Source of the DNA: a virus | Direction: 5' to 3' (one strand) | IMG/VR virus record: IMGVR_UViG_3300032116_015700 | Location: 1-64,000 of that record | DNA length: 64,000 nucleotides | Translations under genes and position numbers: made by a program | In this document: positions 1,075 through 19,629 of the stretch, one piece after another | Position numbering within the stretch: the first letter of the stretch is position 1 | Layout of the letters: every line of letters begins with the position of its first letter | Notes under the pieces: model-generated | Told to the model about the DNA's origin: nothing | Databases searched by the model: none | The model's input: the letters and a program-made list of their open reading frames with translations, nothing else

Positions 1075-1596
1075 TTAAATACATATGTTTTCAATATTTT
1101 TGTTTGCAACCAATCGTAATCGGAATACAATACCATTTATAATACCATCTTTTTTACTAGTCCAATTAATATCCGAGTCTTTTACAAAACCATATCTTTC
1201 ATAAAACAATACTGCTCTATAATTAAATGCCCTAACAGTTAAGAATAAGTTCTCTGCATGTTGTGATTTACAATACTCAACAAACTCATCCAATACTTCT
1301 CTACTAGCATTTGTTTTAGAATGATTTGTTGCAATCTGATGAAGGATAAAATCTCCCTTCTTTTTATATGTGGTAGCGTTTTTACTCATTCTACCATGAG
1401 ATTTATATTTTCCAAAAGTGATTACAACACCATCTTGCAATATCATACCACCTTTTTCAATATATTTTTCCAATTTAAATCCCTGCTTATGGAGATGTGG
1501 AAATATTTCAGGATACAAATCAATAATAGCAGATGCTTGATTTACAGCTTCTATCATTTCAGGTGTACCCTTCTCAGCTTTTACAAAATTAAGCAT
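1075..1596 (-). CDS. GNAT-family N-acetyltransferase
   Basis: This 173-aa protein ends in a typical GNAT signature: a helix, then LFLTVRAFNYRAVLFYERYGF, the C-terminal acetyl-CoA-binding strand and helix (roughly residues 115-138). The middle part (GRMSKNATTYKKKGDFILHQIA) fits the strand that contacts cofactor. The substrate cannot be told. Its start overlaps the end of the asparagine synthetase gene by 8 bases, so the two are probably co-translated. The Mom DNA-modification enzyme also has a GNAT fold, but I see no Mom-specific sequence here, so an ordinary acetyltransferase is the safer call. Confidence 0.75.
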   Translation of the reverse strand: MLNFVKAEKGTPEMIEAVNQASAIIDLYPEIFPHLHKQGFKLEKYIEKGGMILQDGVVITFGKYKSHGRMSKNATTYKKKGDFILHQIATNHSKTNASREVLDEFVEYCKSQHAENLFLTVRAFNYRAVLFYERYGFVKDSDINWTSKKDGIINGIVFRLRLVANKNIENICI

Positions 1597-3046
1597 ATTG
1601 AAAGAATTTATTTTGATTTATTTGGTCTTTATACAAATATACCGATTTTAATTGAGATTTCAAAATATCTTTTTTCGCTTCCATCATATCACCCGTCCTA
1701 CATCCTTTAGCGAAGTAAACTTTAGGTCTATATAATAACTCATCCGAAATCTCACCCTTAAATGCTGCTCTCAATAGTGGTTTCATATGCCCACCTTCTT
1801 TCTGATACAATGGTGGAATGTTTAGGGTATATTCTACAAACGGTCTCCAACTATAAGGAGTTCTTACTTCAACCGTTCCACCCCACATAATAGATTGATT
1901 AGTTGTTAAGAAGTTTGTTTTATGTACATCTTCTACTAACTTTCGTCTTGCCTTATCATAATCTTCCGGTCTCCAATGAAACGCCTGAATATGTCCATAA
2001 CTTCCCCAAATCTCATCCGAAAGGTCACCACTAAACACAACTTTGAAACCTAATTCATTTATCTTTTTTGAAAGTGCTATTTGTGCAATTGCTGAACCTA
2101 CATTTTGCCATCTACTCTGCTCAATCACATAAAGTGTTTCTTCAATTGCATCTTCTACATCTTTTTCAGTTAATATAATTTCATGCAATTTAACACCAAA
2201 CTCTTTAGCTGCAATTCTGGCATATTTTATATCATCGTTCTTTGTATCACCGTCACCCATTGAAACTACAAATGCCTCAATATCAGGTTTAATACGTGAA
2301 AGGATATAAGTTGTAATTACCGAATCAATACCACCGCTAAGAATTGTGCAAATAGGAACATCTGAAACCATTTTAGCTCTTACGGCTTCTTCCAACATTG
2401 TTCTTATCTTACTAACAATAACATCTCTATCATCGTTAATAATTTCGTTTGGAAGTGTGTAATAAGTTTGTGTTGAATGTTCTAATGTTTTATAATTGTA
2501 TTCTAAATAAGTACCTGGATAAATTGCCTTAACTTGTTTTTCATATAAATCAGTAAGTGGAAGACCTTTCTTTTCTGAGCAGAATACTAATTTACCATCA
2601 TTATCAATTCCATACCAAAGTGGAAGTTCACCTACATAATCTCTAACTACAAATACTTTATTAAGCTTTGTATCAACTATTGCAAATGAAAACATACCAT
2701 CCAATTCCTTAAACACATCTACACCAAATTGTTCATACCCATTGAGTATTATTTCGGTATCAGATTTTGTTCGGAAAGGTATAGTAATTCTTTCTCTTAA
2801 ATCTTTTGTGTATTGACTATCCCACAACTCACCATTATACACAATGCAAATAGTTTTATCACCATTCCACATTGGTTGGTTTGCGGTATCAGAAAGGTCC
2901 TGAATTGAAAGACGGTTGTGTCCTACAAAGAAATTACCAATCTTTTCAACTTTAGAAGCATCTCTACCTCTATGAATTATTTTTTGTAACTGGGTATTAG
3001 TTTGCCCTTTAGATGTAAACCAATTACCACCTATTATTCCACACAT
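1589..3046 (-). CDS. asnB: Asparagine synthetase, glutamine-hydrolysing
   Basis: This 485-aa protein has the two domains of AsnB. The N-terminal class II glutaminase starts MCGIIGG, where Cys2 is the nucleophile after Met removal, with RLSIQDLS near 45-52 and NGE at 71-73. The synthetase domain has the ATP-pyrophosphatase motif SGGIDS at 237-242. The enzyme makes asparagine from aspartate, ATP and glutamine. Because Cys2 must follow the initiator Met, the start is fixed. It is slightly shorter than many bacterial AsnB proteins (about 500-550 aa). A class A promoter lies immediately before the gene and would give an almost leaderless transcript. A relative acting on another carboxylate cannot be excluded. 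Confidence 0.9.
   Translation of the reverse strand: MCGIIGGNWFTSKGQTNTQLQKIIHRGRDASKVEKIGNFFVGHNRLSIQDLSDTANQPMWNGDKTICIVYNGELWDSQYTKDLRERITIPFRTKSDTEIILNGYEQFGVDVFKELDGMFSFAIVDTKLNKVFVVRDYVGELPLWYGIDNDGKLVFCSEKKGLPLTDLYEKQVKAIYPGTYLEYNYKTLEHSTQTYYTLPNEIINDDRDVIVSKIRTMLEEAVRAKMVSDVPICTILSGGIDSVITTYILSRIKPDIEAFVVSMGDGDTKNDDIKYARIAAKEFGVKLHEIILTEKDVEDAIEETLYVIEQSRWQNVGSAIAQIALSKKINELGFKVVFSGDLSDEIWGSYGHIQAFHWRPEDYDKARRKLVEDVHKTNFLTTNQSIMWGGTVEVRTPYSWRPFVEYTLNIPPLYQKEGGHMKPLLRAAFKGEISDELLYRPKVYFAKGCRTGDMMEAKKDILKSQLKSVYLYKDQINQNKFFQYA
1634..1663 (-). promoter_or_regulatory. Possible class A-like promoter for GNAT gene
   Basis: TTG (1663-1661), 19-base spacer, TATATTTG (1641-1634), inside the 3' end of the asparagine synthetase gene, 37 bases above the GNAT ATG. 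It lacks the extended TTTGG and has a spacer one base short, so it is weaker evidence than the other class A sites. Confidence 0.35.
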
Positions 3047-17262: not shown

Positions 17263-18549
17263 TTAAACGTTTCCGTAATCCTTTCCCCAACTGGCTTTAA
17301 TAGGGAATCCACCTTCTTCAATTATTTCTTTTAACCCCTTAATCAAACTCTTATCCACATCGGTAGGTACATCAAAAAGGAATGAGTCATAAGTGTACAA
17401 TTCCAAACTTATTCCACTCCCCTTTATGTAATCCAATATCTTCCTCATTTTATCCACATTCACTTCAGTTTCATATGCTTGTAGGAGATAGTTAAATACT
17501 TTTTGTGCGTTTGGTTGTTCTACCCACATTGTAGGGATTTGGCGGTTTGGTGTTTGGATGTAACCCTTCACCACACTCTCTTTCCAAAACCTTTCAATAA
17601 AATCAGCTACCTTATCAAAGTATGGTATTTGTCTAAACTCATCATCAATCCCACCATAAAGGAGACGGAACGTTACTCCCTTACCTTCAGCCAAATCACA
17701 CCCATATTGGTCAGCTAACCATTGGTGAACATTTGTTTGTGGAAGTGGGAAATCAATCAGTTTACCAATAAGACGTGGGTGATACGAATCATAATCCATT
17801 TGTAAGAATATCCCATCCGCTATTAAGGTATCTCTACTCCCATCCGATTTGTTGAGAGCCGCATAGTTTACTCCCGCATGTCTATTGGATGGACGACCAG
17901 TAATTGTAAATGGATTGTATTCGGTGTACACCACATTATCGGATGTAATGTGTTTGGAAGACTGTGGCCATCTATCAATGAATTTTTCCCTTGCGACACG
18001 AATTCCGAATTGTTCAATTTCTGAAAGGATTGGTAAGAAAATATCGTTATACCAATTATAAGTTTTAGTCTTTTGATTACGGTGTTTTAAGAATTCATTA
18101 TCTACCGCTTCCGCAAGTTTAAGAATGGGAATGGATTGAATGACATCTTCTTTGTAACCTTTGTGTAGTAAGGGAGCTACTAAACCTTGTAGTGGTTGGT
18201 TGTAATCTATGGTATCTCCAGTTTTTAGAAAGTGAGCCGTATCAATGTCATTCAATCCTTCCCTTAAATTGGAGAACGATTGTAGTAGCTTCTTCTTTTG
18301 GAAAACCCACTTTTCACCCATTGTATTTAGAACACCCTCTATAAGTGATTTAGAGAGTGATAGAGTATCGGTATGCCGATGTGGAAGAATATACCTATCT
18401 TCTACAGTTCGTATCAGGATAAAGGATATATCGGTGTTTCGTGGGTGTTTATCATTATCTACCCAAAACGGATACCAAAGGGATACTTCAGTTTCCAATT
18501 TCACCTTCAATTCATCCAGCTCACCAATATTTTCCACTATCTTTATCAT
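17263..18549 (-). CDS. Family A DNA polymerase, polymerase domain
   Basis: 428 aa. The C-terminal half holds the three polymerase motifs: A, MDYDSYHPRLIG with Asp252; B, EGKGVTFRLLYGG with Lys290, Phe294, Tyr298; C, TYDSFLF with Asp388. TEYNPFTITGRPSNRH before motif A matches the template-primer region of PolA. By alignment the usual steric-gate Glu (E. coli Glu710) is His257, and the Glu after the motif C Asp is Ser389. The N-terminal ~170 residues show no exonuclease carboxylates I can recognise. This is probably the phage replicase, or a repair enzyme if another polymerase lies outside the window. It overlaps the preceding small gene by 29 bases. Confidence 0.85.
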   Translation of the reverse strand: MIKIVENIGELDELKVKLETEVSLWYPFWVDNDKHPRNTDISFILIRTVEDRYILPHRHTDTLSLSKSLIEGVLNTMGEKWVFQKKKLLQSFSNLREGLNDIDTAHFLKTGDTIDYNQPLQGLVAPLLHKGYKEDVIQSIPILKLAEAVDNEFLKHRNQKTKTYNWYNDIFLPILSEIEQFGIRVAREKFIDRWPQSSKHITSDNVVYTEYNPFTITGRPSNRHAGVNYAALNKSDGSRDTLIADGIFLQMDYDSYHPRLIGKLIDFPLPQTNVHQWLADQYGCDLAEGKGVTFRLLYGGIDDEFRQIPYFDKVADFIERFWKESVVKGYIQTPNRQIPTMWVEQPNAQKVFNYLLQAYETEVNVDKMRKILDYIKGSGISLELYTYDSFLFDVPTDVDKSLIKGLKEIIEEGGFPIKASWGKDYGNV

Positions 18550-18787
18550 TCTTCTTTGCTGCTTGTGCTTTTTCTAATACTGATTGTTTTTTAGCCAACT
18601 TAGCTTCTTTATAAGCTTTCTTCATCATCTTATCATACCCAGCTGGAAACTTATTGGTAACTTCAATTGGTCCATTTGGAAATTTCTTCAAATCATATTT
18701 CCATACGGATTCAGTTCCATCATCATCTTTATATGTTATTTCAAACTTTGTTGGTTTATCTATTGGTTTTTCCGGCCATCTACCCAT
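18521..18787 (-). CDS. Small basic protein of unknown function
   Basis: 88 aa from the ATG at 18787: GRWPEKPIDKPTKFEITYKD, then a two-strand region (SVWKYDLKKFPNGPIEV) and a lysine/alanine-rich helix. A longer frame reaches 18832 but would start inside the class A promoter and tmRNA terminator, so 18787 is the better start. It overlaps the polymerase gene by 29 bases and probably is co-translated with it. I do not recognise the family. Confidence 0.65.
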   Translation of the reverse strand: MGRWPEKPIDKPTKFEITYKDDDGTESVWKYDLKKFPNGPIEVTNKFPAGYDKMMKKAYKEAKLAKKQSVLEKAQAAKKNDKDSGKYW

Positions 18788-18801
18788 AAAAACAATTTGT
18801 A

Positions 18802-18832
18802 CAAATATACAAAAAAAATCCCAAACTACCAA
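18802..18832 (-). promoter_or_regulatory. Class A promoter inside the tmRNA terminator
   Basis: ATTTGG (TTG at 18832-18830, in the terminator loop), 20-base spacer made of the hairpin 3' arm and T-tract, then TATATTTG (18809-18802). It would drive the small protein and DNA polymerase, with the ATG 14 bases on. Confidence 0.72.
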
Positions 18833-18848
18833 ATAATAGTTCGGGATT
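18811..18848 (-). terminator. Intrinsic terminator of tmRNA
   Basis: A 12-base stem (AATCCCGAACTA / TAGTTTGGGATT, one G-T pair) with an eight-base loop, followed by a run of eight T on the coding strand. It starts two bases after the encoded CCA end of the tmRNA. Confidence 0.9.
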
Positions 18849-18850
18849 TG

Positions 18851-19224
18851 TGGTGGAGATGGTGGGATTCGAACCCACGTCTTACGAAGTAACCATAATA
18901 CCAGCTTTTCACACGTTTAGGATAAGGTTTAATCTTATTCACCTTCCAAAATAATTGGGGCCGTTTGGTTAGAACAGCGCTACCACCAACCGATTTAAAG
19001 TTTCGGTAAACTTAATGCTCATTCTTTTTAAATTCCACGATGAGTGCGGAAGGGATTAGGCTGCTACAGCGTAATCAGCACCTACGAATGCCATAACGTC
19101 ATCGAAGGTCCATGTAGATAATTCTACGTCATTTATTGTTTGATTCCGAGATTAAAGTGGTTTGAGAACCTTCCCACTACGTGTGATACTACAATTCGCA
19201 TCGCAATCAAGTCCAGTCATCCCC
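18851..19224 (-). ncRNA. ssrA: tmRNA (transfer-messenger RNA)
   Basis: A 374-base gene. The 5' end GGGGATG pairs with CATCTCC at the 3' end, with a G-U pair at the third position as in alanine-charged tmRNA; A plus CCA is encoded. A T-arm GTGGG-TTCGAAT-CCCAC is present. A first pseudoknot can be drawn (GTGG/CCAC and GGTTC/GAATC), and the likely resume codon GAC follows it after 11 bases, the same gap as in E. coli. The open frame then encodes a 24-residue tag that starts DVELSTW and ends VGADYAVAA, then TAA. It has its own class A promoter and terminator. It would rescue stalled ribosomes and mark the peptides for proteolysis. Confidence 0.95.
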
Positions 19225-19231
19225 ATATTTG

Positions 19232-19262
19232 TAAATATACAAAAAGTATTTGAATTTACCAA
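19232..19262 (-). promoter_or_regulatory. Class A promoter for tmRNA
   Basis: ATTTGG (TTG at 19262-19260), 20-base spacer, TATATTTA (19239-19232). The mature 5' end of tmRNA lies eight bases downstream. Confidence 0.8.
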
Positions 19263-19263
19263 A

Positions 19264-19629
19264 TTAATATAAAGAAAATTGCGAATGAAACGGAAGATGA
19301 TTTATAATACCAATAATTTTTTTTGAAGCTATTTTGAGTGATTGTTTATTTGAATTTTCAATTTCATTTAAATTACCTGTTATTCTCCATTCTAAAGAAG
19401 AAGTATTCCAAAATGGGTCAGTTAAATACTTCTCATACTCTTTTGAATTTATTTCATATATTGTGGCATCTTTATCATTAACTCTTTGAATAAAATACCT
19501 CACAATATATCCTCTCCTATAATCAATATAATTTGGAGTTGGTATAAATGTTCTAATAGTATGGTTTACTGGTCCACGCTTATTTTGTGCATTTAGCAAT
19601 TGATTATATTCAAATGTACTTATTCCCAT
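19264..19629 (-). CDS. Hypothetical protein in baseplate cluster
   Basis: 121 aa: GISTFEYNQLLNAQNKRGPVNHTIRTFIPTPNYIDYRRGYIVRYFIQRVN, followed by a mixed region with LEWRITGN and a basic helix. It begins one base after the hub protein stop codon, so it is co-translated with baseplate genes and is probably structural. No family is recognised. Its stop is just above the tmRNA promoter. Confidence 0.6.
   Translation of the reverse strand: MGISTFEYNQLLNAQNKRGPVNHTIRTFIPTPNYIDYRRGYIVRYFIQRVNDKDATIYEINSKEYEKYLTDPFWNTSSLEWRITGNLNEIENSNKQSLKIASKKIIGIINHLPFHSQFSLY

Follow-up and report, generated by a model that had tools for sequence, protein, structure and literature searches.

Known tmRNAs and their tags

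The tags encoded by tmRNAs are usually viewed as short degrons, with little difference between those of a phage and those of its host. In Mesoplasma the tag reaches about 27 residues, and that of Mesoplasma florum is read by Lon; in this mollicute tag, which belongs to a cellular organism lacking ClpXP, the front part bears the protease signal. Phage tmRNAs have been reported in the mycobacteriophages Bxz1, Wildcat and others and in Bacillus phage G (PMC4131195), as well as in the OM43 phage Melnitz and 402 tmRNA-bearing phages (PMC9004378), and these lists make clear that phage tmRNA as such is already known. The passages of the two papers that deal with tmRNA, phages and tags do not describe the tag family presented here. 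The 2025 tmRNA database paper gives 10 as the commonest tag length, and its passages on tags and phages make no mention of long phage tags (PMC11915505). The tag peptide strings themselves were not found in the literature searched.

Identity and architecture of the tmRNA gene

The window, that is, the whole analysed stretch of 64,000 nucleotides, contains a single tmRNA according to ARAGORN, and no other was found in the 91-kb (91,093-base) virus record from which it is taken. The gene and its main elements are as follows.

18851..19224, minus strand: one-piece tmRNA (ssrA) of 374 nt with encoded CCA (ARAGORN and Rfam RF00023)
19142..19177, minus strand: pseudoknot 1, GTGG/CCAC and GGTTC/GAATC (sequence, Rfam alignment and alignment with relatives)
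19056..19130, minus strand: tag frame DVELSTWTFDDVMAFVGADYAVAA with stop codon TAA (ARAGORN; frame common to at least 142 relatives)

An earlier note on this DNA had claimed a complete one-piece tmRNA, and this was borne out by ARAGORN and by an Infernal match of RF00023 to the window at 80.3 bits (gathering score 47; E 1.5e-29), in which model positions 1-374 were fully covered; the two methods concur on the ends of the gene. The acceptor stem GGGGATG/CATCTCC with its G3-U pair, the signal for charging with alanine, the T arm and the encoded CCA are present, and the resume codon GAC (19130-19128) lies exactly 11 nt after the last base of pseudoknot 1 (AAACAATAAAT); sequence and Rfam alignment agree with the earlier note on these points. 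The tag is coded at 95-169 of the gene and comprises the 24 residues already read by that note; in the covariance model, GAC aligns with the resume codon of E. coli. Furthermore, the open tag frame ends in a hydrophobic degron, as ARAGORN and the relatives indicate, and the final DYAVAA is of the VAA type that had been proposed.

Among the relatives listed, position 3 is G in all 142, and its partner is U in all 68 that could be read, the other 74 being left unread by the simple end rule of the script. Ahead of the resume codon, T occupies −5 in 43 of 46 distinct contexts, and A at −4, A at −3 and G at 0 are found in all 46. A two-piece (permuted) tmRNA was ruled out by the one-piece form given by ARAGORN, and a chance or false call by ARAGORN, the RF00023 match and the conserved family. 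A later resume codon with a tag of normal length was likewise ruled out, because GAC is the codon indicated both by the covariance model and by the signal ahead of it. Relatives that ARAGORN reads in other frames (VNKPEHYLSAP, AEYAVAA) contain, at the usual position, the long frame conserved in the family, and since independent relatives hold the same frame, the length of 24 residues is not a reading error. That the element is a tmRNA is virtually beyond doubt.

A long-tag family in phages

Scans of IMG/VR with patterns for the tag start, the tag end, both ends and a relaxed core recovered at least 142 ARAGORN-complete one-piece tmRNAs (at least 112 distinct) with tags of 23-26 residues, which form one family; at least 50 distinct tags occur among the tmRNAs listed for it. 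The tag-start pattern led to six other viral contigs, all with a complete tmRNA and a long tag, and when just DYAVAA and the stop codon were fixed, every one-piece tmRNA among the matches listed was of the long form. Additional loci with the same peptide were missed by ARAGORN, mostly being cut by contig ends. Tags of the family consist of three to five variable residues (DVEL, DEM, AEEL, GEEK and others), the core S[TS][MWF]TF[ED]D[ALV]M[AS]F[VI]G and an A-ending degron. In the window the core is located as follows.

19080..19118, minus strand: extension core STWTFDDVMAFVG (codon test and core identity)

With the core fixed, the ends DLAVAA, EYAVAA, DEYAYAA, NEYALAA, DDYALAA, GEVLMAA, DEATFA and DELAIA, and also EYAYAA, were seen, so that the degron differs while the core stays and the last residue is Ala throughout; as each scan fixes one part of the tag (core or end), both views are to be read together. 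All length variants are in frame with the degron.

The relaxed pattern M-x-[FW]-[VIM]-x-x-[DN]-Y-A-x-A-A-stop covers about 80% of the family tags, the remaining 20% or so, which are one residue longer, escaping it. It was found in at least 119 viral stretches, and among 84,980 prokaryote species it gave no tmRNA with such a tag; one prokaryote match lay inside a helicase gene without a tmRNA and was dismissed as chance. A tblastn search with the 24-mer found nothing among 50,697 phage records, and 72,556 plasmid records gave no match either. The statement of the earlier note that the front part has no match thus holds for cellular organisms, in which no relative was found, and fails for uncultured phages, which supply many. 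The terminase of the window phage is 28 to 90% identical to those of tag-bearing records, and other large records show no such identity. The nearest cultured relatives by protein are Microcystis phage Mel-JY01 and Flavobacterium phage immuto, in neither of which a tmRNA was found. The tmRNA annotated in Maribacter phage Panino (PP540027.1 27557-27889) was set aside as a probable miscall by ARAGORN, given its overlap with the tRNA-Asp and tRNA-Thr genes.

If the long tag were what some unsampled bacterial lineage normally uses, the phages would simply have copied a host tmRNA. The hosts are uncultured, and the pattern used for the genome scan misses about one fifth of the family tags, which leaves some room for such a lineage; the single chance helicase match in 84,980 species against at least 119 viral stretches, and the sharing of the tag by phages as diverse as the terminase identities imply, make this origin very improbable. 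The long-tag family is, with good confidence, specific to phages.

Selection on the extension and structure of its RNA

In counts that were not adjusted for shared ancestry but whose direction is clear, the nonsynonymous/synonymous ratio per potential site was about 0.10 for 61 distinct core sequences, and in pairs in which the rest of the tmRNA aligned at 47-57%, the core was about 70% identical in amino acids and 83% identical at codon positions 1 and 2 versus 55% at position 3. The same ratio was 0.11 in 41 core sequences that were fetched without fixing the core, by a pattern that fixed only DYAVAA, and the mean entropy at codon positions 1, 2 and 3 was 0.46, 0.31 and 0.99 bits, respectively. 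The extension has the look of a capping box: a hydrophobic residue, a T/N/S cap, F, E/D, D, A/L/V and a final G. In 37 distinct cores the presumed helix cap is T in 34, N in two and S in one, all of which are good caps, and the third residue after it is D in 35. The helical hydrophobic (amphipathic) moment of the extension was not significant, and a search of solved structures with the 24-mer gave no match. The conserved extension is kept as a peptide at least as well as the degron itself. It is almost certain that the tag is translated and selected as a peptide.

The coding region also folds, and two hairpins were delineated.

19080..19109, minus strand: extra hairpin over codons T8-G17, ACCTTCGAT...ATTCGTAGGT (RNA folds and pair counts)
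19054..19076, minus strand: hairpin GATTACGCTGTAGCAGCCTAATC, which contains DYAVAA plus the stop codon and corresponds to helix 5 of canonical tmRNA (fold)

In the stop hairpin, two Ala codons covary at their third positions (GCA..GCT / GCT..GCA), which are A-T or T-A paired in 98% of 62 sequences, compared with 56% after shuffling. Since the stop codon of canonical tmRNA lies in helix 5, the family has one added hairpin in front of it, which is read as codons. Folding gave this extension hairpin a mean energy of -9.7 kcal/mol, compared with -7.2 kcal/mol for synonymous shuffles, and pair counts revealed some compensatory change; the codon bias of the extension partly also serves the RNA hairpin. 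These two observations, together with the variable tag length of many phage tmRNAs, are what would be expected of an ordinary phage tmRNA in which the extension is an RNA structural insert or spacer and the peptide only exposes the degron. A spacer is, however, hard to reconcile with the large excess of synonymous over nonsynonymous changes, with swaps of one hydrophobic residue for another (M/W/F; F/W/Y) despite altered codons and with length variants that are all in frame with the degron, and this explanation is considered unlikely. Conservation at the peptide level favours a redirecting or second-signal role over a mere spacer.

Gene context, phage and presumed host

The tmRNA gene of the window is bordered by the following features.

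19232..19263, minus strand: promoter TTTGGTA-N17-TATATTTA of the Bacteroidota -33/-7 type (sequence motif)
18816..18849, minus strand: terminator-like stem-loop with T run (sequence)
19264..19629, minus strand: upstream gene of 121 aa, no Pfam family, adjoining the tmRNA in 53 loci
18521..18832, minus strand: downstream gene of 103 aa, no family above the cut-off

The promoter begins right after the stop codon of the upstream gene and ends 7 nt ahead of the tmRNA 5' end; with the terminator-like stem behind the gene, this fits the host-type promoter and terminator that the earlier note had assigned to it. Promoter motifs of the TTTG/TAnnTTTG type precede the tmRNAs of 41 of 97 relatives, compared with 5.4 in shuffles. 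The next promoter (TTTGGTAGTTTGGGATTTTTTTTGTATATTTG, 18802-18833) overlaps the terminator after the tmRNA, a layout that recurs in many relatives, and gene neighbourhoods vary among tag-bearing records. A boxA-like element (GTTCTTTAA / GTTATTTGA) was observed in 43 of 83 relatives, 5-6 nt ahead of the tmRNA 5' end (for example, loci L013, L018, L119 and L154; background, 1.8%), and is absent upstream of the window tmRNA; it may act as a signal for antitermination or processing.

The record belongs to a tailed phage whose tail is contractile. The window phage encodes tail sheath, tail tube, baseplate wedge, tape measure, portal, large terminase and major head proteins, and also a DnaB-like helicase, UvsX, a DNA polymerase fragment and ribonucleotide reductase. 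It further carries an asparagine-synthase/glutamine-amidotransferase-like gene (1589-3046) beside a GNAT acetyltransferase-like gene (1075-1596). Lack of Shine-Dalgarno sequences and TTTG/TAnnTTTG promoters are traits of Bacteroidota. In the family loci, Shine-Dalgarno sequences precede genes at 3.8% against a background of 6.1%, compared with 33.7% against 6.7% in phages with ANDxxxALAA tags, and TTTG-N17-23-TAnnTTTG promoters are enriched (79 versus 18 in shuffles). Judged by these promoters and the lack of Shine-Dalgarno sequences, the hosts look like Bacteroidota-type bacteria. SmpB was found neither in 48 family records nor in the record of the window, and host SmpB must therefore serve. 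ClpP homologues occur in four of the 48 records and may be capsid-maturation proteases.

Other long tags and their possible meaning

In an unbiased sample of 86 viral tmRNAs found via the 3' end, at least 10 combined a resume codon at the normal position with a tag longer than 20 residues; in a Pseudomonadota sample, the tags of chromosomal one-piece tmRNAs comprised 10-13 residues. A second, unrelated family with tags of 21 residues, G[NE]xxxKLxTxGLIRTEEV[TS]VA (…KLSTLGLIRTEEVTVA), was found at about 35 loci in similar phages, which lack Shine-Dalgarno sequences and have the same promoters as the first. Loci of this second family include L215, L236, L315 and L317, and the ARAGORN start is often four codons late in them. 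Other long tags were observed in individual phage tmRNAs; these tags comprise 24-31 residues at the normal resume position, e.g., ANKYNSEDMMSIPTSITRVAEEAELLLAA.

L219:6747-7152: single phage tmRNA with another long tag
L235:2034-2438: single phage tmRNA with another long tag
L322:911-1308: single phage tmRNA with another long tag
L285:2223-2591: single phage tmRNA with another long tag

It thus seems that phages evolved a tmRNA tag version of their own. A tentative possibility is that they did so repeatedly, with docking-module tags in at least two unrelated families (…STxTFEDxMxFVG-degron and …KLxTxGLIRTEEV[TS]VA, both in Bacteroidota-type phages) that redirect rescued polypeptides by way of a specific interaction with an adaptor or protease in which the host's own tmRNA would take no part.

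The opposite purpose, a tag that decouples or protects rescued phage chains from the host pathway or counters a host defence or adaptor, was also considered. The phage-specific extension and the varying degron, which once ends in SA or IA, would suit such a tag, as would the short host-like tag GENNYALAA in seven viral contigs (several from isolate genomes), which indicates that the short form is available to phages. Nearly all members nevertheless retain a hydrophobic degron with AA or A at its end, and this retention argues that degradation is wanted; decoupling is accordingly given a small but real chance.

Should the extension bind a specific partner, phage tmRNAs would do more than supplement host ribosome rescue. 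The module is conserved, occurs in diverse phages and was not found in bacteria, and the question of why phages carry tmRNA thereby becomes testable. Tag ends such as ...STWTFDDVMAFVGADYAVAA and ...STMTFEDAMAFVGADYAVAA provide a signature for tagged peptides in metaproteomes, and the extension with its degron is a candidate for a new degron or adaptor pair.

Proposed mechanism

A working tmRNA whose tag combines a docking segment with a ClpXP-type degron in a Bacteroidota-type host is the reading that we somewhat favour. By analogy with general tmRNA biology, the phage tmRNA would be charged by host alanyl-tRNA synthetase and carried to stalled ribosomes by host SmpB, and translation would then resume at GAC to add the 24-residue tag. 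The final DYAVAA could act as a C-terminal degron, whose Ala-Ala end may engage a ClpX-like unfoldase or a ClpXP-type host AAA+ protease. Ahead of it, the inserted 12-14 residues may adopt a short helix, with S/T/N as the cap and F-[ED]-D after it, and this helix could dock an adaptor, an unfoldase or another partner in infected cells. A docking role of the extension has a little under an even chance. Docking would cause rescued chains to be treated differently from chains with the short host tag, and the redirected peptides or second signal suggested by the earlier note may then be the function of the tag.

Comparison with known systems

The phage tmRNA resembles canonical RF00023 tmRNA (E. 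coli ssrA) in its match to the whole covariance model, the G3-U stem, CCA, the T arm and pseudoknot 1, and also in the resume codon about 11 nt after the pseudoknot, the stop codon in a hairpin and the AA-ending degron. In contrast to canonical tmRNA and the Bacteroidota-type tag GENNYALAA, its tag has 24 rather than 9-10 residues, with about 13 extra residues ahead of DYAVAA coded by an added hairpin, and the gene is phage-borne without an accompanying SmpB gene. As far as the tmRNA passages of PMC4131195 and PMC9004378 describe them, the earlier phage tmRNAs are similar in being complete, phage-borne and dependent on host SmpB. The tag of Mesoplasma florum is also long; the phage tag differs from it in sequence, and no homology is claimed. 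Since longer tags were already known, the unusual part of the phage tag is the conserved, phage-specific extension more than its length.
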